This document shows, piece after piece, positions 2,770-29,130 of a DNA stretch of 33,231 bases. The position numbers and the translations under genes are program-made. The notes beneath the pieces were generated by a model. That model saw nothing but the letters and a program-made list of their open reading frames with translations, searched no databases and was not told where the DNA came from. Every line of letters begins with the position of its first letter. Positions within the stretch are counted from its first letter, which is position 1. This DNA comes from an uncultured Methylococcaceae bacterium (GTDB lineage: Bacteria; Pseudomonadota; Gammaproteobacteria; Methylococcales; Methylomonadaceae): assembly GCA_903938485.1 (NCBI GenBank), contig CAJADF010000084.1, forward strand, positions 1 to 33,231, in the 5' to 3' direction.

Positions 2770-2949
2770 ATGGCTGATTACAAAAAATATATCTGCGAAG
2801 TATGCGAACACATTTATGATGAAGCGTTGGGCGATACCGATTCTGATATCGCTCCGGGTACTGTATGGGCTGATGTGCCAGAAGATTGGCGTTGCCCAGA
2901 CTGTGGCGTGGGCAAGGATGATTTTATATTACTCGTAGACCCTAGCTAG
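2770..2949 (+). CDS. rubredoxin
   Basis: This 59-residue gene falls below common ORF length cut-offs. It encodes a one-iron electron carrier of the cytoplasm. The four iron ligands are clear: C9-E-V-C12 and C42-P-D-C45. The family core is present: YICEVC.HIYDEA, then D-I-A-P-G-T near 26-31, DVPEDWRCPDCG near 36-46 and KDDF. The usual Gly after the first CxxC is Glu here. The start is ATG with GAGG upstream. The stop codon lies inside the 3' end of the convergent olsA gene, giving a 21-bp tail-to-tail overlap. Its redox partner is not in the window; rubredoxins commonly serve alkane hydroxylase, peroxide or oxygen detoxification systems. Confidence 0.93.
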   Translation: MADYKKYICEVCEHIYDEALGDTDSDIAPGTVWADVPEDWRCPDCGVGKDDFILLVDPS

Positions 2950-3705
2950 TTCTACATTAAGCGCAATTTTATCGACGATAGATTCTCTGGCTTCATGACT
3001 CACAGAGAGTCTATCTCTACCGGAACTTCTAATTACGGGTAAAAATGAAATCACCAAATCAATTTTTTCCATCGTTAGGATTCTTAATAAATGCGATACA
3101 AAATCATCATCACCTACAAACGGTGCTAATTCTTTTGAAGGGCCAATATACTCCAGCGCAATCGGTTGAATAGGTGCTTTGGTCAGTAATGCCGGTTGAA
3201 ATAAAGAAGCATGAAAACCTAAGACATCATCACCTTTTGTAGTGGTGCCCTCTGGAAACGCGATGATATTAGATTGTTGTTTCAACAACCAGATCATGCG
3301 CTCATTGATTTCTTTGACGTGTTTTTTATCGCCACGACGGATAAATATAGTTCCCGCTTGTCTGGCTAAAAAGCCAATCACCGGCCAACCGGAAATATCA
3401 CTTTTAGCGACAAAATAAGCCGGTAAAAATTTACCAATTACGACAATATCTAACCAAGAGATATGGTTACTGACTAATAGTGAACCCTCTTCTGGCAGTG
3501 TACCCTCTTGGGTGATATGCAGATTAAGAATGGCACTAAAACTGTTAAGCCAATTTTGTTTTATCGCATCACGTCTTTTTTTGGCAATATTAGCTTTGCT
3601 TAATAATCCCAATAAAGGGAATATTAAACCCGCTAATACTAAACCATACGCAAATAAAACAATAACTCGACTTAATTTATAGGTTAGCCGCAGTTTCGAT
3701 TTCAT
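2929..3705 (-). CDS. olsA: lysophospholipid / lyso-ornithine-lipid acyltransferase (PlsC family)
   Basis: The protein has 258 residues. It transfers an acyl chain to a lyso-lipid at the inner membrane. The family motifs are present: NHISWLD with H81 and D86 (HX4D catalytic motif), FIRRGD near 121-126, and FPEGTTTKGD at 150-159. One N-terminal membrane segment lies at about residues 13-35. Its start overlaps the end of the upstream olsB by 29 bp, so translation is probably coupled. That pairing supports OlsA, the second step of ornithine lipid synthesis (O-acylation of lyso-ornithine lipid), rather than the general PlsC of phospholipid synthesis. Its last 21 bp overlap the rubredoxin gene on the other strand. 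The family is sure; the exact substrate is inferred from context. Confidence 0.85.
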   Translation of the reverse strand: MKSKLRLTYKLSRVIVLFAYGLVLAGLIFPLLGLLSKANIAKKRRDAIKQNWLNSFSAILNLHITQEGTLPEEGSLLVSNHISWLDIVVIGKFLPAYFVAKSDISGWPVIGFLARQAGTIFIRRGDKKHVKEINERMIWLLKQQSNIIAFPEGTTTKGDDVLGFHASLFQPALLTKAPIQPIALEYIGPSKELAPFVGDDDFVSHLLRILTMEKIDLVISFLPVIRSSGRDRLSVSHEARESIVDKIALNVELARVYE

Positions 3706-4468
3706 TAGGTGCTTGATAGCCTTTCATATAATGTTTGCTGTAACGATCTTTTAACTGATCTAAAGGTAATAATACAAATAAATCCATACAGTTAAAATCT
3801 TCATCCCAATACGGTTCGCCACAAATTAATGCACCAAATCGTAAATAGGCCTTTAATAAAGGTGGGATACCTGACTCGTCACGTTGACATCTTAATTCAG
3901 CAGGCACTGCGATACTAGGGGTTACTTGAATATCGCTAGGGGCGATATTCTTTTCATCAATGTTTCTAAATACTGCATCAATTGCATAACCGCTTGGACC
4001 GGGCGTAATACTTGCACAACCTAATAAGTAGTTATATTGGCCTTCTAAGGCATATTGCACTAATGAAGACCATAACGTGGTTAATACCGCACCACCACGA
4101 TAATCAGGATCTACACACGTTCTACCCACTTCTAAAAAACGACCGGGTAGAGCCAATACTTGATCTAGATTAAATTCATCTTGTGAATAAAAACGACCCA
4201 ATCTTTTTGCTTGATCTTGGTTTAATAAGCGTGTGTAACCCACAATCTTTTGGTTAACATTGTCATAAACAATTAAATGATCACAATAGCTATCCACTTC
4301 ATCATAATCAAGACCTTCCGCTTCGGTCTTTAATTTTGCACCCATTTCTCTACCAAATACGCGGTATCTCAGGGCTTGAGCTTCTTTTATTAATGCTTCT
4401 GTATCAGCTAAAAAACAATCTAGTTTTTTAGTGGCTTTGATAAGTGTTTCTGTCTCTGTGTTTTGCAT
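3677..4468 (-). CDS. olsB: L-ornithine N(alpha)-acyltransferase (OlsB-like GNAT protein)
   Basis: The protein has 263 residues from the ATG at 4468, which has AGGTGG eight bases upstream. An in-frame GTG at 4480 is closer to that site and less likely. OlsB makes lyso-ornithine lipid from ornithine and 3-hydroxyacyl-ACP. Family features seen are ALRYRVFGREMG near 36-47, LGRFYSQDEFNL near 89-100, EVGRTCVDPDYRGG near 113-126 (the GNAT cofactor-binding region), and the C-terminal PPLLKAYLRFGA / GEPYWDEDFNCMDLFVLL block typical of OlsB-type proteins, formerly called hemolysin-like. It is the first gene of an overlapping pair with olsA and stands behind a three-part Pho box, as expected if ornithine lipids replace phospholipids when phosphate is scarce. 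Confidence 0.85.
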   Translation of the reverse strand: MQNTETETLIKATKKLDCFLADTEALIKEAQALRYRVFGREMGAKLKTEAEGLDYDEVDSYCDHLIVYDNVNQKIVGYTRLLNQDQAKRLGRFYSQDEFNLDQVLALPGRFLEVGRTCVDPDYRGGAVLTTLWSSLVQYALEGQYNYLLGCASITPGPSGYAIDAVFRNIDEKNIAPSDIQVTPSIAVPAELRCQRDESGIPPLLKAYLRFGALICGEPYWDEDFNCMDLFVLLPLDQLKDRYSKHYMKGYQAPNEIETAANL

Positions 4469-4552
4469 GTATTTTGCCACCTAGCTCGGATAAATATCGA
4501 AATAGATTAATCAACCAAAGTGACAGTTTAATGTCAGCTTAGTTAAAGAAAC

Positions 4553-4581
4553 ATGACAATCAAATGACAGATTTGTGACAA
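4553..4581 (-). promoter_or_regulatory. predicted Pho box (three half-sites) upstream of olsBA
   Basis: Three 7-mers with 4-nt spacers read ATGACAA-TCAA-ATGACAG-ATTT-GTGACAA on the plus strand. That is three copies of the PhoB half-site (CTGTCAT, read on the minus strand) at 11-nt period, oriented toward olsB. The box ends 84 bp before the olsB ATG. A possible -10 lies in the TAACTA region at 4540-4546, but it is weak. A further TGACAgtttaaTGTCA inverted pair lies at 4521-4536. Confidence 0.7.
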
Positions 4582-20180: not shown

Positions 20181-20894
20181 TTAATTAAATTTTACTCTTT
20201 TCTCTAATTCTTCTTGAGATAAATGCCGTACATCTTCGCCCTTGATCATATACACAATATGTTCACAGATATAACAAGCATGGTCGCCAATTCTTTCTAA
20301 AGCACGAACTGTCCAAAGCACATCCAATGTACGAGTAATATTTCTAGGATCTTCCATCATTCTAGTAATTAACTGTCTAAGAATGCTGTCGTATTCCCGA
20401 TCAACATTAATATCTAAAGCAGTAATAGCAGGCACATCATCAAGAGTCATTCTTGCAAAGGCATCAAGCGCATCATGTAACATACCCTTAACTAAAACGG
20501 CCATATGATCTAATTCATAATGCGATAGCTTATTTTCCGTACCAGCCAATTTAATAGCCATTTCGGCTATTCGTTCTGCTTTATCACCTACACGCTCTAT
20601 TTCGTGAATGATTTTAATGACAGTAATTAATAATCTTAAATCAAAAGCCGTAGGTTGTCTTAATGCTAAAATTTGCGTACATTCTTGATCAATTTGAATT
20701 TCAAGCTCATCAACTTCGTTGTCTTGCTTAATCACTTGCTCTGCAAGTTCCATATTACCCGTCGCATAGGCTTCAATGGCTAACTCTATTTGGCGCTCAA
20801 CTAAACCTCCCATCATTAACACTTTATTGCGAATATCTTCTAATTCAACATTAAAGCGCTCTGAAATGTGATGCCCTATTTTAGTGTTTTCCAT
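20181..20894 (-). CDS. phoU: phosphate-transport regulator PhoU
   Basis: The protein has 237 residues. PhoU links the Pst transporter to the sensor kinase PhoR and keeps the Pho regulon off when phosphate is plentiful. The fold is two three-helix PhoU repeats with E/DxxxD metal motifs, seen in HEIERVGDKAERIAEMA near 90-106 and in the second copy ALERIGDHACYICEHI near 202-217. The start ATG has AGGAG eight bases upstream. It is the last gene of pstS-pstC-pstA-pstB-phoU, 13 bp after pstB. Confidence 0.96.
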   Translation of the reverse strand: MENTKIGHHISERFNVELEDIRNKVLMMGGLVERQIELAIEAYATGNMELAEQVIKQDNEVDELEIQIDQECTQILALRQPTAFDLRLLITVIKIIHEIERVGDKAERIAEMAIKLAGTENKLSHYELDHMAVLVKGMLHDALDAFARMTLDDVPAITALDINVDREYDSILRQLITRMMEDPRNITRTLDVLWTVRALERIGDHACYICEHIVYMIKGEDVRHLSQEELEKRVKFN

Positions 20895-20907
20895 TGCCTA
20901 CTCCTAA

Positions 20908-21738
20908 TTAACCATACCTACCGGTAATGTAATCTTCAGTTTGTTTTTTTACTGGATTCGTGAATAGTTCGCTGGTTGTACCCATTTCAATTAATTCACC
21001 CATATACATAAATGCAGTATAGTCAGACACACGAGCAGCCTGTTGCATATTATGTGTCACAATCACTATAGTATATTTTTCTTTAAGTTCGTTAATTAAT
21101 TCTTCAATTTTTAAAGTCGATATAGGATCTAATGCAGAAGCAGGTTCATCGAGCAATAAAACTTCAGGCTCAATAGCAATTGCCCTAGCAATAACTAACC
21201 GTTGTTGTTGACCTCCAGACATACCTAAGGCATTGTCATTCAGCCTATCTTTCATCTCATCCCAAAGTGCAGCACCTCGTAATGAATTCTCAACCGTTTC
21301 TTCTAAAATTCTCTTATCGTTGATGCCTTGAATTCTTAGACCGTAAGCCACATTTTCAAAAATTGACTTTGGAAATGGATTAGGCTTTTGAAAAACCATA
21401 CCAACACGTCTTCTAAGCGCAGCAACATTTACTGATTTATCATAAATGTTTTCGTTGTCTAATAATATTTGGCCTTCGATTCTAGCACTATCAACTAAAT
21501 CGTTCATGCGGTTGATACATCTTAATAAGGTTGATTTACCACAACCACTAGGTCCAATAAAAGCAGTTACTTTTTTCTTTGGCATTTCCATATTGATAGT
21601 ATGTAATGCCTGTTTTTCACCGTAGAAAAGATTAAGATCTTTTACAGTTATACAAGTTTCATTATGATTATTCTCGTTACCTTTATCACGCAAAACTGAG
21701 CTCATATCGATAGCATGTGTACGTATTTGTTCTGACAT
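20908..21738 (-). CDS. pstB: phosphate ABC transporter ATP-binding protein PstB
   Basis: The protein has 276 residues. It is the ATPase of the high-affinity phosphate importer on the inner face of the membrane. Walker [10 protein letters not shown] is at 62-70, the Q-loop in [12 protein letters not shown] near 112-124, the ABC signature MSGGQQQR at 173-180, Walker B with VLLLDEP at 193-199, and the H-loop in [11 protein letters not shown] near 226-236. It is about 20 residues longer than E. coli PstB at the N-terminus (a charged leader, residues 1-28). AAGG lies eight bases before the ATG. The gene follows pstA by 4 bp. Confidence 0.97.
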
Positions 21739-21742
21739 TTGA

Positions 21743-23398
21743 TTAACCTTCTAGGGCGCGATATTTTTCTCGCAAGTTATTTCTTATAACAATTGCAGCC
21801 AAATTAAGACCAACAATAACTAAAACCAACAATAATGCTGTTGCATAAACCAAAGGTCTAGCAGCTTCTACATTAGGACTTTGAAAACCAACATCATAAA
21901 TATGAAAGCCTAAATGCATGAATTTTCTATCTAAATGTAAGAAGGGGAAATTACCATCCAACGGTAACGTAGGCGCTAATTTAACTACCCCTACCAACAT
22001 CAATGGTGCAACTTCACCTGCTGCTCTAGCAACCGCTAGAATTAATCCTGTCATCATTGCAGGACTAGCCATGGGTAATACAGTTAACCATAAGGTTTCC
22101 AGTTTCGTGGCACCTAAAGCTAAGCTTCCTTCACGAATTGAACTGGGAATTCGAGCTAAACCCTCTTCAGTAGACACGATAACGACAGGTAAAGTCAGTA
22201 AAGCCAATGTGATAGAAGCCCATAATAATCCTGGAGTACCATAGACGGGTGCCGGTGCAGATTCTGGAAAGAATAAACGATCAATATTTCCACCTAAAAT
22301 GTACACAAAAAACCCTAAACCAAATACACCATATACTACTGATGGCACCCCAGCTAAATTATTAACGGCAATTCTTATTAAGCGGGTAATAAATCCTTGT
22401 TTAGCATATTCACGTAGATAGACTGCTGCAATAACCCCAAACGGAGTTACAATAACGGACATCATAAGCACCATCATTACGGTACCAAATATAGCGGGAA
22501 AAATACCCCCTTCAGTATTTGCTTCTCGAGGATCTTCTGTTAAAAACTCATAAACTTTAGCGCCATAGTGACAGATCTTATCGAATACAGTCATTGAGTT
22601 AGGCTGAAAAACTCTAACTACTTTAGCGAGTGGAATTTTAACTTGAACGCCATTTTCAGCTTCTGCCACTAAAACATCGCGTCTAATTTTTTGGTATAAA
22701 TCAGCTAACTGGACTTGATATTGTTTATATTCGGCGTCGTAAGTATTTTTCTCATCTGCCAACTGTTGTTTAGCACTTTCATCTAAACGATTTTCTAACT
22801 CTAACTTACGTTGGTTTAATCTAAGGCGCTCAAGATTATAATTGATAGACCCAATCTCTTTCTTTTCTAAATGGGCAATTTCCTTAAAAACAGCTAAGGT
22901 TTCTACAATTTTGGTTTGTAATACTGGCCAAGCTTCTGAACCTGAGGCAATTGTCTTTCCAGACTCTTTAATCTCAAGTATTCGACCGTAAAAATTTCCC
23001 CATTCACGTCTTTCTACAACTATTAAATCATCAGGCTCATTTTCAGACTTAACATTACGTTTCTCTATCCACAAAAAGTCTGTACCTGTAACATCTCTGT
23101 TACCTGATTTGATTAAATATTGTATTAATACGTCTTCATTATCGGCCATTTTATGACCAGTAGACTTAGCCATAAGTGCCGGCGTGACACTTGAGTCAAC
23201 TTGTTCGCCGATAATTATCTTTTCTGATTTACCCTCTTCTAAATAAGTAAATTGCTTTACCTGTGAAGGCCAAAAATGACCAATGCCTCTTCCAGTCACT
23301 AACCCTAAGATGCCAACCACCATCAGCATACAAATACTAACAGCTGCCGCATTGAGCCATATCCAAGGGGCTCCACTTTTAAACCATACTTTAATCAT
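21743..23398 (-). CDS. pstA: phosphate ABC transporter permease PstA, long form
   Basis: The protein has 551 residues, nearly twice the E. coli length of about 296. A first membrane segment at about 10-35 is followed by a roughly 260-residue insertion before the permease core. The insertion includes a charged coiled-coil segment near residues 172-242 (L-E-K-K, L-E-R-L, L-E-L-E-N pattern). The core runs from about 300 to 545, with [19 protein letters not shown] and the cytoplasmic EAA-type loop ([12 protein letters not shown] near 419-430) that contacts PstB. Long PstA proteins are known from Vibrio, Pseudomonas and relatives, so this is an accepted variant. It overlaps pstC by 4 bp (ATGA). 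Confidence 0.94.
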
Positions 23399-25692
23399 AA
23401 TGAGCTATATTTTTCGCGTAAACGCTGACGAATAATTTCAGCCAGGGTATTAAAAACAAAGGTAAATGTAAACAACACAAGAGCGGCTAAAAACAACACT
23501 CGATAGTGTGTACTATCAACTGCAGATTCTGGCATCTCTACAGCTATATTTGCAGCTAGAGTTCTTAATCCTTGAAAAATACTAATATCCATAACGGGTG
23601 TGTTACCCGTTGCCATCAAAACAATCATGGTTTCACCCACTGCGCGACCTAGTCCAATCATTACAGCCGAAAAAATACCAGGGCTTGCCGTTAATAAAAC
23701 AACCTTGGTCATTGTTTGCCATGTAGTTGCACCTAATGCCAAAGAGCCAACTGTTAAGTGTTTAGGCACACTGAATATTGCGTCTTCTGCAATTGAATAA
23801 ATAGTTGGAATTACCGCGAATCCCATTGCAATACCAACTACCAAAGCATTTCTTTGATCGTAACCTATGCCAAATTCATTTTTAAACCAGTCTCTTAATG
23901 TTCCACCAAAAATATAGGCTTCCATAGGTACACTTACAGAAAAGGCTACCCATGCCGATAGGATAATAACGGGGATTAATATTGCAGACTCCCAACCTTC
24001 ATGAATATTTTGCAAGACTGATTTTGGAAAAAACTGCCAAACAAAAGCAAATAAAATAACACTGAGGGGTACAAATAAAAATAACGTAAATAACCCCGCT
24101 AAATGTTCTTCTATAATGGGCGCTAACCATAAACCTGCTAAAAAACCTAAAATAACCGTAGGCAAGGCTCCCATTAACTCAATGGTTGGCTTGACGTATT
24201 GACGCATTTTTGGCGTCATAAAGTAAGCGGTATAAATCGCCCCCATCAACGCTAAAGGCATCGCCACAAGCATAGCGTAAAAGGCGGCTTTTAACGTGCC
24301 AAAAACTAAAGGCGTTAAACTGTATTTGGGCTCAAAATCACTATTTGCAGAGGATGATTGCCATATATAATCTGGTTTTGAATAACTTTCATACCAAACT
24401 TCTTCCCATAGAGATTTTATAGAAACCTCTGGATGTTTGTTATCAATAGACCAGCTATTTAATTTTCCATCTGAAGATTCAACTACAACTGCATTTGCTC
24501 TAGGAGAGAGAGCTGAAGCAATGGGCATTCCAGTTCCGATTGACTCTTTTATCATTTCACGTTCTGAAGTTGAATGATAAACCGCCAACGTATTATTAGC
24601 GTCTAGCGTTAAAAAACCTTTACGACGTTGTTCAGGATTTATTGCAAGTACAGCTTTATCAGAAACTTTAAATTGTCTAATTTTTTCTAAAGTAAATTGA
24701 TTTTTTTGATCTCTTACTTTACTCCACTGTGTAACTAAACCTGATGAATCACCTACCATAATAGATAAATCACCATTTAAAAAAGCTGTACTGGTTATTG
24801 TCTCTCCTTTATCCACCAATAACTGCTCTTTAATCAATTTTGGTGAACTTTTATCAGAGATATTAAATAGAGCCAAAGTGCCATCTTGGCTGAATAAATA
24901 TAAATTTTGCTCCTCTTTATCAATCAACATATTTTTTATAGGGGAAGCGGCATAATTTATGATTGAATCAGTACGCGTTAATGTCGCCTCATCGGAAAAT
25001 AATGACTGCTCTTTCTCAAAATTACAAAGGCGTATTTTACTTCCGTCCGAAGCATTATTCGTAGTTTTAGCTACAATCGTACTTGATTTATCACCCATTT
25101 TAACGGCAATCTCTTCTAATGCAGAGCCTGTATCATCAACAATCAATGGCGTTTCACCCATAGGATATGCTAACGAAGGTGTAATCAATTTCACATTATT
25201 TGGATAAGTGACTTTGTACTGATGTTTAACAACAACAGCCTTACCGTCTGAAAGTCCATAAATAACAGCCCCTTCACTAATAGGACTTCCTTGAGAAAAA
25301 CTAACTATCTGAACTGATTCAGGAAGTTTGACAGACTCAACTGCAATTGTTTTACCTGTGCTTACCGAAAAGAAAACCACTTGGCCTTTATCAGTAAATC
25401 GAGCACCTACTTCATTTTGCTCCTCAATCTCTAGCAACACTGTTTTACCTAAATTCATTTCAGGTACGGCATATTGAGCAATAGGTTCAGCTGAAGCAGA
25501 AATAAATAGTGGGTAAACGACATAAAGCAAATAGAAAAAAATCAGCGCAATCGCAAATATAATGCCTAATCCGCCTGCAATAACACCATATCGAGCGATA
25601 GCATCTTTTATAAGCCGCCATCTTTCATGTGCACTACCGGATGATAACTGCAAACTTGAAGTTGATTTTGTTTGATTGTTTAGTTTAGACAT
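23395..25692 (-). CDS. pstC: phosphate ABC transporter permease PstC, long form with periplasmic domain
   Basis: The protein has 765 residues against about 320 in E. coli. One membrane segment at about 34-62 is followed by about 380 extracytoplasmic residues. These have repeated short beta-strand patterns (LFSQDGTLALFNIS, GDLSIMVGDSSGLVTQWS, SSDGKLNSWSID) like a WD40/beta-propeller domain. The permease core begins near 455 (TPLVFGTLKAAFYAMLVAMPLALMG) and contains the PstB-contacting loop [17 protein letters not shown] near 660-676. Long PstC proteins occur in other Gammaproteobacteria. The gene is separated from pstS by 136 bp containing a strong inverted repeat. The ribosome binding site is weak. 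Confidence 0.93.
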   Translation of the reverse strand: MSKLNNQTKSTSSLQLSSGSAHERWRLIKDAIARYGVIAGGLGIIFAIALIFFYLLYVVYPLFISASAEPIAQYAVPEMNLGKTVLLEIEEQNEVGARFTDKGQVVFFSVSTGKTIAVESVKLPESVQIVSFSQGSPISEGAVIYGLSDGKAVVVKHQYKVTYPNNVKLITPSLAYPMGETPLIVDDTGSALEEIAVKMGDKSSTIVAKTTNNASDGSKIRLCNFEKEQSLFSDEATLTRTDSIINYAASPIKNMLIDKEEQNLYLFSQDGTLALFNISDKSSPKLIKEQLLVDKGETITSTAFLNGDLSIMVGDSSGLVTQWSKVRDQKNQFTLEKIRQFKVSDKAVLAINPEQRRKGFLTLDANNTLAVYHSTSEREMIKESIGTGMPIASALSPRANAVVVESSDGKLNSWSIDNKHPEVSIKSLWEEVWYESYSKPDYIWQSSSANSDFEPKYSLTPLVFGTLKAAFYAMLVAMPLALMGAIYTAYFMTPKMRQYVKPTIELMGALPTVILGFLAGLWLAPIIEEHLAGLFTLFLFVPLSVILFAFVWQFFPKSVLQNIHEGWESAILIPVIILSAWVAFSVSVPMEAYIFGGTLRDWFKNEFGIGYDQRNALVVGIAMGFAVIPTIYSIAEDAIFSVPKHLTVGSLALGATTWQTMTKVVLLTASPGIFSAVMIGLGRAVGETMIVLMATGNTPVMDISIFQGLRTLAANIAVEMPESAVDSTHYRVLFLAALVLFTFTFVFNTLAEIIRQRLREKYSSL

Positions 25693-25772
25693 GCCGCAAT
25701 TCTAAAGTTGGAGTTTGACTCTGTTAAATCGATCAGATAGAACAAATATAAAACTTATATGTGTCTGATATA

Positions 25773-25811
25773 AATAAAATCTTATAAGCATCCTTGCAAT
25801 AAGATTTTATT
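25773..25811 (-). terminator. 13-bp hairpin between pstS and pstC, possible partial terminator
   Basis: Arms 25773-25785 and 25799-25811 are perfectly inverted (AATAAAATCTTAT / ATAAGATTTTATT) around a 13-nt loop. On the minus strand it lies just after the pstS stop, and its 3' arm is itself T-rich. It probably reduces read-through into pstC or protects the pstS mRNA end. Confidence 0.6.
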
Positions 25812-25828
25812 AAAGCTTATCAAGTGTG

Positions 25829-26812
25829 TTACTTAATTGTATTTAAAACTTTATCTACAATTTTAGCTGGTAATGGAATATATCCATCTTTAATAACAAC
25901 TTGTTGACCAGATTTAGATAAAACAAGTTTGATGAACTCATTTTCTAAAGGTGCTAATGGTTGGTTCGGTTTTTTATTAACATAAACGTATAAAAAACGA
26001 GTTAATGGATAAGTACCATTAAGTGCATTTTCAGGTGTTGCATCTACAAAAGGTTGGCCTTCTTTTTTAGCTAATGGCACCATTCTAATACCCGATGTTG
26101 TGTAACCCATACCAGAGTAACCAACACCATTTATTGAAGAAGTGACCGATTGAACAACAGAAGCTGAACCAGGCTGTTCATTTACATTGCTTTTAAAATC
26201 GCCTTTACACAAAGCATGTTCTTTAAAATACCCATAAGTTCCAGACACAGAATTACGTCCGTACAATTGAATAGATTTTGTACCCCAAGCTTCAACACCT
26301 GCTTCACCCCAAGTAGTTATGTTACTAGGATTACCACATTTCAATGTAGTAGAGAAAATAGCATCTACCTGTGGAACAGTTAATCCTTTAATTGGATTAT
26401 CTTTATTAACCATTACAGCTAATGCATCTATAGCAACAGGTATTGCAGTGGGTTTATAACCATATTTATCTTCAAACGCTTCTAATTCATCATCTTTCAT
26501 TTCGCGACTCATAGGTCCAAGATTAGAAGTTCCTTCAGTTAAGGCTGGAGGTGCAGTTGAAGAACCTGCTGCTTGAATTTGTACGTTTACATTTGGATAT
26601 TCGCGATTAAATTCTTCTGCCCACAAAGTCATTAAATTAGCTAATGTATCAGACCCTACACTAGATAAATTTCCTGCAATACCACTTGCTTTTTGATAAG
26701 TAGGTAATCCTGAATCAACTGAAGGAACAGCCTGTGCTGTTGTTGTAAACCAAGTTGAAGACACAAAACCCATCGCAAGTAATAGCGACTTTGTTTCAAA
26801 AGAAAATCTCAT
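25829..26812 (-). CDS. pstS: phosphate-binding periplasmic protein PstS
   Basis: The protein has 327 residues from the ATG at 26812, chosen because GGAG stands eight bases before it. A GTG two codons upstream would sit too close. It binds phosphate in the periplasm for the PstCAB importer. The signal peptide ends at A-Q-A near residue 28. Family motifs include [13 protein letters not shown] near 53-65, [11 protein letters not shown] near 83-93, [13 protein letters not shown] near 98-110 with the S-R phosphate ligand, and [14 protein letters not shown] near 191-204. A Pho box precedes it. It is the first gene of the operon and probably the most highly expressed. Confidence 0.96.
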
Positions 26813-26865
26813 TAACACTTCTCCAGTAATTTATTAGGGTACTATTATCTAAGTTATACATCACA

Positions 26866-26899
26866 ATAATATTAATATTATATGACAAGAATGTGAAAG
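26866..26899 (-). promoter_or_regulatory. predicted Pho box and -10 element of the pst operon
   Basis: On the minus strand CTTTCAC-ATTC-TTGTCAT (26882-26899) gives two PhoB half-sites with the usual 4-nt spacer. Exactly 10 nt downstream is TATTAT, a good -10, and no separate -35 is needed in PhoB-dependent promoters. The -10 lies within a 16-bp A/T palindrome (26866-26881). Confidence 0.72.
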
Positions 26900-26959: not shown

Positions 26960-27466
26960 CTATTCAGATAATAACTTCGCATATGTTATCGATATTAAAG
27001 ACGCACAACCTGATTCAAGCGAAAACCAATCTTCTGGCATTTTTAATCTAACTAAAGTTGATGTAGGTAATAATTTGTTAGTGTCTGGCAAGTTACCTGC
27101 GCCCACAAAATTAATCAAAACATGTTCTAACTCTGGATTGTGACCCACTAATAGTAGCTTTTTGACCTGCATAGGGCATTCTGCTAAAACACCTTTTATT
27201 CTTTCAACACCTTCTTGATACAAACGTTTATCAATTGCAATCAATAACGAATTAGCAACTTCTCCATGTATTATATTGGCTGTAGAGAACGCTCTATTAG
27301 CAGGAGAACTTAAAATATAATCAGGTATTAAATTGTTATTTGACATCCATTTTGCTAAGCACAGTAAATCATGCTTGCCTCTCTTTTTCAAAGGCCTATC
27401 AAAATCATCGACAGCTAAATCTCGGTCAGACTTCCCATGCCTAAGTAACCATAATTCTCTACTCAT
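26960..27466 (-). CDS. sixA: phosphohistidine phosphatase SixA
   Basis: The protein has 168 residues. SixA is a small histidine phosphatase that removes phosphate from phosphohistidine; in E. coli it acts on the nitrogen phosphotransferase system (NPr). The catalytic RHG is at residues 9-11 (LLRHGKSDRD), with the conserved DFDRPLKKRGKHD following at 21-33. The second catalytic His lies in LLVGHNPELE near 104-113. GGGAG stands six bases before the ATG. It lies about 140 bp upstream of pstS on the same strand and is divergent from the CHAD gene, a pairing that suggests a phosphate-related role. Members of this family can also hydrolyse other phosphoesters. Confidence 0.9.
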   Translation of the reverse strand: MSRELWLLRHGKSDRDLAVDDFDRPLKKRGKHDLLCLAKWMSNNNLIPDYILSSPANRAFSTANIIHGEVANSLLIAIDKRLYQEGVERIKGVLAECPMQVKKLLLVGHNPELEHVLINFVGAGNLPDTNKLLPTSTLVRLKMPEDWFSLESGCASLISITYAKLLSE

Positions 27467-27532
27467 GAAATACTCCCTTTGTATTTAGATGTTTTTCACT
27501 TAAACCTGATACGATAACCATTTATTATTACA

Positions 27533-27566
27533 CTGTCATTAAATGTTAATACTGGATAAATACACT
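27533..27566 (+). promoter_or_regulatory. Pho-box-like site and -10 upstream of the CHAD gene
   Basis: CTGTCAT-TAAA-TGTTAAT (27533-27550) has one perfect and one weak PhoB half-site at the correct spacing. TACACT, a possible -10, begins exactly 10 nt after it (27561-27566), the same geometry as at pstS. It lies 53 bp before the ATG. Confidence 0.5.
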
Positions 27567-27603
27567 ACTACCGTAAATTTTTAATCTTCGATTCCAAACT
27601 AAA

Positions 27604-29130
27604 ATGCAATTACAATTTGATTTCCCTCCCAACTTAAAAGCTGAAAAGTTTATTTGCAAATTAAGCGACATAGCTAATGTTGAATTAATTTCAAAGCAAT
27701 ACATGTTAAAAACTTTTTACGATAGTTTCGACTGGAGACTCTTCAAAAATAATATGTCTTGTGAGTTTAGTCGTTCTAAAAACGTTTCATCATTTACTAT
27801 TAAAAATTTAAAAAAAGACCTTATTATCAGCGACACTGAACTAACTGAAATTCCTGAATTTTTTCATCAGTTCGAATCAGAAGAGATTAAAAACCAACTT
27901 GCACCCTTATTAGAAATGCGGGCTTTATTACCCGTATGTAATTTAGATTACGAAAGTTACCATTTAAATATACTTAATAAAGTTAATAAGACTATACTTC
28001 GCTTAGTTTTAGAACAAAACGAACACTTCAATAGTCGATTAACCTTAATACCTATAAAAGGTTACTCTAAAGCACAAGAACATTTTATTTCAGTCATTAC
28101 AAATGAATTTAATCTAGTTGCCGCAACTCTTCCTACTTTAGTAATTGCCTTAAAACTTCAGGGGCGTAAACCGAACGATTATTCATCCAAATTAAACATC
28201 ATATTAGACCCGTTTATGAGGGCTGATATTGCTGTAAAACTTATTTATAGCTATTTACTTAAAGCTATCAAAGATAATGAACAAGGCATAATTGCAAATA
28301 CTGACAGTGAATTCCTTCATGATTTTAGGGTTGCAGTGCGCAGAACACGTTCAGGAATTAGCCAACTAAAAGGTTTAATCCCAGATAACACTAACACTTA
28401 TTTTGCGGAATTTTTCTCTTGGCTCGGTCAAATCACCAGCCATACCCGTGATTTAGATGTATATTTACTAAACTTTCAGAGTTATAAAAATAGCTTACCT
28501 GAAGCCACTAGAAATGATCTTGACCCACTATACGATTTTCTTTTAATAAAACACAACCAAGCTCAACTAGAACTTGCTAGCAATCTTCGATCGCAGAATT
28601 ATTTAACTAAAATTTCTGAATGGGAAAGTTTTCTGAAGGAACAAGCACCCTCAATTGTCATTCAGGCTAATGCTAAACTATCTATTCATCAACTTGCTAA
28701 CCAAAGAATTCTCAAAAGTTATAAACGTGTTTTAAAAGAAGGTAATGACATTACTGATCATTCTGAATGTGAAGCGTTACATGATTTAAGAAAATCTTGT
28801 AAAAAACTTCGATATCTACTGGAATTTTTTCAAAGCCTCTACCCTGAAAACCAAATAAAAGTATTTATAAAAAGCTTAAAAGAATTACAAGCTGTCCTTG
28901 GTGATTTCCAAGATTATGCGGTTCAAGAGAATGCTTTAAAATTATTTAGTGTTGAGATGTTAAATAACAACGCAAGTGCAAATACATTAATAGCTATTGG
29001 TTTTTTAATTCAAAATTTAGATAGCCTCAGAAATGAGGCTCGAAATAATTTCTCAATAAAATTTAATGAATTTAAAAATAAAGATACTCAAGAAGAGTTT
29101 GAAAAGCTACTTGCAAGAAAGATAATCTAA
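27604..29130 (+). CDS. degenerate-CYTH / CHAD domain protein, probably polyphosphate-binding
   Basis: The protein has 508 residues and no signal peptide. The C-terminal 300 residues are a CHAD domain with the expected basic helical repeats: FLHDFRVAVRRTRSGI (H239, R242, R246, R247, R249) and ALHDLRKSCKKLRYLLEFF (H393, R396, K397, K400, K401, R403). CHAD domains bind polyphosphate and localise to polyphosphate granules in several bacteria. Residues 1-190 resemble a worn CYTH (triphosphate tunnel) domain: FYDSFDWRLFKNNMSCEFSRSK near 38-59 fits the Y-x-D-T/S-x-x-x-L region. The N-terminal ExExK catalytic motif is absent (LQFDF instead), so triphosphatase activity is unlikely. It is divergent from sixA next to pst, with a Pho-box-like site before it. 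Confidence 0.85.
   Translation: MQLQFDFPPNLKAEKFICKLSDIANVELISKQYMLKTFYDSFDWRLFKNNMSCEFSRSKNVSSFTIKNLKKDLIISDTELTEIPEFFHQFESEEIKNQLAPLLEMRALLPVCNLDYESYHLNILNKVNKTILRLVLEQNEHFNSRLTLIPIKGYSKAQEHFISVITNEFNLVAATLPTLVIALKLQGRKPNDYSSKLNIILDPFMRADIAVKLIYSYLLKAIKDNEQGIIANTDSEFLHDFRVAVRRTRSGISQLKGLIPDNTNTYFAEFFSWLGQITSHTRDLDVYLLNFQSYKNSLPEATRNDLDPLYDFLLIKHNQAQLELASNLRSQNYLTKISEWESFLKEQAPSIVIQANAKLSIHQLANQRILKSYKRVLKEGNDITDHSECEALHDLRKSCKKLRYLLEFFQSLYPENQIKVFIKSLKELQAVLGDFQDYAVQENALKLFSVEMLNNNASANTLIAIGFLIQNLDSLRNEARNNFSIKFNEFKNKDTQEEFEKLLARKII

Follow-up and report, generated by a model that had tools for sequence, protein, structure and literature searches.

The window, as we call the whole 33,231-nt stretch of DNA analyzed here, makes up contig C84 in a draft genome of 2.51 Mb. 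The OlsB that it encodes shares 99% identity with one from an uncultured Methylococcaceae MAG and groups among Methylobacter, Crenothrix and other Methylococcales; judging by this protein, we take the host to be a gammaproteobacterial methanotroph. On its minus strand it carries two overlapping genes resembling olsB and olsA and, further along, a pst operon. The gene pepA diverges from olsB, and the intergenic stretch of 298 bp between the two contains an array of six PhoB-type half-sites followed by a putative −10 hexamer. The features are listed below, with half-sites P1 to P6 scored against TGTCAY.

2929–3705, minus strand: olsA-like gene, acyltransferase (PF01553, 83 bits), overlapping the end of olsB
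3677–4468, minus strand: olsB-like gene, GNAT acyltransferase (PF13444, 118 bits; cut-off 22.4)
4504–4509, minus strand: −10-like hexamer TAATCT, 10 nt past P6, with TANNNT at the same offset in 80 of the 80 named loci described below
4520–4525, minus strand: half-site P6, TGTCAC, 6 of 6, at the place expected for a −35 element
4531–4536, minus strand: half-site P5, TGACAT, 5 of 6
4542–4547, minus strand: half-site P4, TTTAAC, 4 of 6, weak
4553–4558, minus strand: half-site P3, TGTCAT, 6 of 6
4564–4569, minus strand: half-site P2, TGTCAT, 6 of 6
4575–4580, minus strand: half-site P1, TGTCAC, 6 of 6
20181–26818, minus strand: pstS-pstC-pstA-pstB-phoU operon
26844–26898, minus strand: pst promoter, with TTTCAC, TGTCAT, ATTAAT and TGTGAT at an 11-nt pitch, then 10 nt, then GATAAT

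A preliminary description of this DNA had reported three PhoB-type half-sites at exact 11-nt spacing, facing olsB-olsA. The minus-strand sequence from 4580 to 4553 bears this out: TGTCAC, TGTCAT and TGTCAT, separated by AAATC and TTGAT, match TGTCAY without a mismatch at an 11-nt pitch toward olsB. The count of three covers half of the feature, however, as P4 to P6 extend the triple in register. From 4580 to 4520 the minus strand reads TGTCAC, TGTCAT, TGTCAT, TTTAAC, TGACAT and TGTCAC (6, 6, 6, 4, 5 and 6 of 6 matches) at a single unbroken 11-nt pitch, and 10 nt further on is TAATCT, at 4509–4504. The array thus has the direct repeats and the half-site consensus, (C)TGTCAT, of PhoB-activated promoters, as well as their arrangement of a last half-site at the −35 place and a −10 hexamer ten nt downstream. 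We estimate that transcription of olsBA would start near 4497. The ORF list places the start of olsB at a GTG at 4480, but homologues begin at the ATG at 4468, so the GTG is probably not the true start.

The promoter of E. coli pstS is built in the same way, with TGTCAY half-sites at an 11-nt pitch, the last of them 10 nt ahead of the hexamer taken as the −10. The sequence used for this comparison matched three records at 100%. The E. coli promoter differs in having four half-sites rather than six, and in driving phosphate uptake rather than lipid synthesis. A Pho box is defined as direct repeats, each roughly 7 nt long, at an 11-nt pitch (PMC4415409), and in a modelling study PhoB at its sites over the −35 position contacts sigma as well as alpha subunits (PMC3348028).

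To judge how readily such an array arises, we compared it with shuffled sequence and with the rest of the genome. Allowing up to three mismatches, the triple pattern matches the window four times, each match being a register of the olsB array; the mean in dinucleotide shuffles of the window is 0.14, and none of 100 shuffles reaches four. A perfect pair of half-sites occurs at four places in the 2.51 Mb, and these make up two perfect triples: the olsB array, and one at positions 1346–1373 of contig C45. On the strand of the C45 triple, no ORF of at least 40 aa starts within 1.1 kb downstream, so a triple alone is no proof of a promoter. This second triple (locus L032) is intergenic, and is flanked at ~1210 and ~1580 by two copies of a repeat containing TTATCCACA, which is DnaA-box-like. 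Looser pairs are common. With up to one mismatch there are 42 places in the genome, versus 22 for the pattern read backwards. Pairs with no more than two mismatches number 10 in the window, where 7.94 are expected, so a lone pair would mean little.

We also used a composite score, which sums four half-sites (maximum 24) and requires TANNNT at a fixed offset, 16 nt after the position where the last half-site begins. The olsB array scores 21 of 24, while 60 shuffled windows peak at 18 (0 of 60 reach 19). Six places in the window score 15 or more, versus 1.2 in shuffles; all except the olsB array score exactly 15, and most have no evident role.

Conservation of the half-sites upstream of olsB in relatives had been proposed as a check in the preliminary description, and when we made the comparison the site proved to be kept at all 80 of the named loci examined, which are described below. 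OlsB matches are present in 31 of 61 genomes (this one included), and we retrieved the loci for 30 of the 33 matches. In a six-unit scan, all 22 olsB loci from the same family score between 26 and 33 of 36. Eight further loci, from the order's other families, have four-unit promoters and score just 19 to 25. A five-unit pattern, allowing up to three mismatches, has exactly one match in each of 19 of the 35 genomes of the genus, always immediately upstream of olsB, and the reversed pattern has none in the same 35 genomes. As the pattern itself comes from olsB promoters, matches there are expected, and the informative result is its absence elsewhere: it is missing from all 14 genus genomes without olsB. 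It also missed two of the 21 that have olsB (G001 and G021), whose arrays are more degenerate.

The olsBA genes are patchily distributed in the genus. The 14 of 35 genomes without an OlsB match are G002, G004, G005, G007, G011, G016, G018, G020, G022, G023, G025, G029, G030 and G033, and seven of these are at least 94% complete.

We also analyzed, without the five-unit pattern, a set of 80 named loci that are the best 80 of 572 OlsB relatives and come chiefly from Methylococcales. These loci share ancestry, and many come from genomes identical or close to those in the set of 61. In all 80, no more than one of 60 first-order resamples equals or exceeds the score of a four-unit array. All 80 likewise reach a composite score of 17 of 24 with TANNNT at offset 16, as do 3 of 2103 control windows taken from the same loci. 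With TANNNT required at any of the 17 alternative offsets between 8 and 25 instead, no more than 17 of the 80 loci reached 17. Across 46 aligned six-unit loci, half-site columns carry an average of 1.59 bits of information and spacers 0.90 bits. The 25 columns preceding P1 average 0.20 bits, and we rejected the idea that the array extends further upstream. A chance origin of the olsB array is rejected by the shuffles, the control windows, the offset control and this conservation.

The length of the array varies. Six units precede olsB at 46 of the 80 named loci (counting a locus as six-unit if P1 matches at 5 or more of 6 positions), five units at 3 loci (L127, L129 and L131), and four at 31. 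Methylobacter tundripaludum SV96 has six units, whilst Methylovulum psychrotolerans and Methylotuvimicrobium buryatense 5G have four. In most six-unit relatives the P2 position holds a weak TTTAAY or CTTAAY, and strong and weak half-sites alternate in arrays of four to six units. Length differences are of whole 11-bp units and the distance to the −10 is constant, which strengthens the reading of the units as tandem regulator sites. On a tree of OlsB sequences made by a quick method (81 rows including the window), the length label requires 10 changes, compared to 27.5 for shuffled labels, so array length is inherited yet has repeatedly changed; gain and loss of units are not distinguishable on this tree. 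Crenothrix sp. D3 and a MAG related to it (L142 and L148) may have a seventh unit, TGTTAT, which stands in register upstream of P1.

To look beyond the order, we sampled 232 Gammaproteobacteria, of which 42 have an OlsB match; 39 of these are outside the order, and loci were kept for 27 of the 39. Four-unit arrays whose shuffle fraction is 0.02 or less (200 resamples each) are present at 21 of the 27, and 6 exceed that fraction. At offset 16, 17 of 27 loci have a composite score of at least 15 and 10 fall short of it; at other offsets 0 to 2 of 27 reach it, and control windows never exceed 15, a score that about 0.2% of 1300 attain. On these results, a Pho-type promoter before olsB is common in Gammaproteobacteria, with the window as one instance. 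A gammaproteobacterial host for such a site, which the preliminary description had considered noteworthy, is therefore unsurprising, the more so as a Pho box upstream of olsB is published for Acinetobacter (PMC11828411).

A matching box at pst in the same window had also been noted. It exists and has the same layout as the olsB promoter, though it is weaker and has four units. Among 30 pstS loci kept from 39 matches, the best −10 match is exactly 10 nt past the array in 22, and at the other 8 the 10-nt spacing is not the best. The window's PstC (765 aa) and PstA (551 aa), encoded at 21743–25692, are far longer than the 296- and 272-position models, having long N-terminal parts. Beside pst, at 26960–29130, are a gene for a SixA-like phosphohistidine phosphatase (47 bits; cut-off 74.5) and one for a 508-aa CHAD-domain protein, the latter gene with a weak half-site array at 27512–27566 that scores 15.

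PhoB and PhoR are both encoded in the genome, by adjacent genes on contig C40, and score 336 and 408 bits against curated cut-offs of 296 and 334. Upstream of phoB itself there is just one good half-site, and no composite score reaches 15.

We consider it very likely that 4504–4580 is a PhoB-dependent promoter of olsB-olsA, and that the olsBA product is a phosphorus-free amino lipid which partly replaces phospholipid at low phosphate. Of the parts of this reading, the predicted control of olsBA by PhoB is well supported, by conservation in 80 of 80 named loci and by a PhoB and a PhoR that both exceed curated cut-offs. The binding of PhoB, the direction of regulation, and the lipid with its role and benefit are what we infer from sequence, and so is the 'phosphate-sparing lipid switch' of the preliminary description. 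In the mechanism we propose, PhoR would phosphorylate PhoB when phosphate is scarce. Up to three PhoB dimers would bind head to tail over the six 11-bp repeats, the last covering the −35 position, and bound PhoB would bring RNA polymerase to the −10, which lies ten bases beyond the array. Induction of olsBA would then accompany that of pst under phosphate limitation, and the phosphorus-free amino lipid made, most likely ornithine lipid, would take the place of part of the phospholipid. The membrane lipids of these bacteria would thus probably change when phosphate runs out.

The sole LpxH/PlcP-like phosphatase gene that we saw, which may encode PlcP, has no half-site array of this kind and no composite match of 15 or more in the surrounding 10.5 kb, and at six PF00149 loci the regions upstream of ORFs of at least 150 aa score no higher than 14 of 24. 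PhoB-coordinated phospholipid removal is therefore unsupported in this genome.

The strongest competing explanation accepts PhoB control of the promoter and concerns the lipid: the head group might be lysine, glutamine or another, or the lipid might have a role other than sparing phosphate. We think this unlikely, but it has some substance. The two genes score below the cut-offs of the NCBIfam equivalog models (for OlsB, 164 and 160 bits against 320 and 350; for OlsA, 117 and 115 bits against 300), so we name them OlsB-like and OlsA-like; these models carry the names of other groups. Moreover, a search for a solved structure of a relative gave none at E 0.01, and Acinetobacter is reported to make both ornithine and lysine lipids under the control of olsB (passages of PMC11828411). 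On the other side, the PF13444 domain is present, no NCBIfam model matches better than those of OlsB, and olsA adjoins olsB in the window and in 76 of the 80 named loci (3 of the remaining 4 lie within 100 nt of a contig end). OlsB and OlsA have also been assigned to some methanotrophs by other authors (in passages of PMC9239053).

It is less likely still that a PhoB-like paralogue reads the array instead of PhoB, or besides it, in which case the signal may not be phosphate alone. Two more PhoB-like response regulators are encoded in the genome, at L069 1489–2181 (contig C108) and L034 5135–5827 (contig C113), and at 281 and 274 bits they are just under the PhoB cut-off of 296. By eye, their recognition-helix regions, EERTVDVHIRRLR and EERTIDVHIRRLR, are nearly the same as or identical to that of PhoB, EERTIDVHIRRLR. 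Against a role for them, neither has an adjacent sensor kinase within the stretches examined, the pst promoter shares the layout of the olsB promoter, and that layout is kept in other gammaproteobacterial orders, which may or may not encode such paralogues.

It is highly improbable that the array serves pepA or came about by chance. It does lie in the intergenic stretch common to both genes, and the C45 triple and the surplus of composite matches without evident role show that look-alikes exist. However, no shuffled window exceeds 18, against 21 for the real site, and we rejected control of pepA on finding a divergent pepA at just 7 of the 80 named loci (in one of them 2.35 kb away; a few of the loci are cut off close upstream by a contig end), when the array is at all 80.

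A PhoB-dependent promoter of olsBA would be of a kind already known. In Acinetobacter, as in the window, a Pho box lies upstream of olsB, and the formation of aminolipids at low phosphate depends on PhoR; that box was set against a two-half-site consensus, and the Acinetobacter olsA is without a box, whereas in the window olsA overlaps olsB (PMC11828411, in part). Pho boxes are likewise predicted before olsB in Burkholderia sensu lato (passages of PMC7814305). Vibrio cholerae is another gammaproteobacterium with ornithine lipid synthesis under PhoB control, but it uses the bifunctional OlsF in place of OlsB and OlsA (passages of PMC12186959). The methanotroph Methylosinus trichosporium OB3b makes ornithine lipid at low phosphate and has OlsB/A genes; it is an alphaproteobacterium, however, with remodelling centred on PlcP, and the term 'Pho box' does not occur in the main text of the report (PMC9239053). 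Variable arrays have a parallel in the complex PHO operators of Streptomyces coelicolor, where 11-nt direct repeat units vary in number and order between promoters, although there the regulator is PhoP, the motif is GTTCACC, and the variation is among the genes of one genome rather than at one promoter across species (passages of PMC4415409). The passages of PMC6460317 and PMC11844350 contain nothing on phosphate-induced ornithine lipid. What the present analysis adds is the Methylococcales instance, its conservation across the order, and the stepwise variation in length by 11 bp at one promoter.

Among methane sinks, aerobic methanotrophs are important, and little is known of their regulation by phosphorus (PMC9239053). 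Since the promoter is conserved at every Methylococcales olsB locus that we examined, the prediction is that these bacteria swap phospholipid for amino lipid at low phosphate, which would matter for the interpretation of ornithine lipids as biomarkers and for growth where water is poor in phosphate. More tentatively, and with considerable doubt, we suggest that the number of half-sites before olsB might be an evolved dial: the length of the array would set how much phosphorylated PhoB is required, and hence when in starvation phospholipid is given up, separately from the four-unit pst promoter. Promoters of four, five and six units before one gene form a natural series for probing the effect of extra PhoB sites.

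Similar arrays stand before other genes in this genome. One, scoring 19 of 24, precedes the gene for a 437-aa secreted protein without a Pfam or NCBIfam match (L034 2863–4176, on C113). Another, scoring 20 of 24 and 10 nt ahead of TATGAT, precedes that for a 164-aa lipoprotein-like protein (L036 2269–2763, on C85), and a third, scoring 18 of 24, precedes that for an XrtD-type exosortase (L035 1847–3457, on C83). These three genes are candidates for further members of the predicted regulon.
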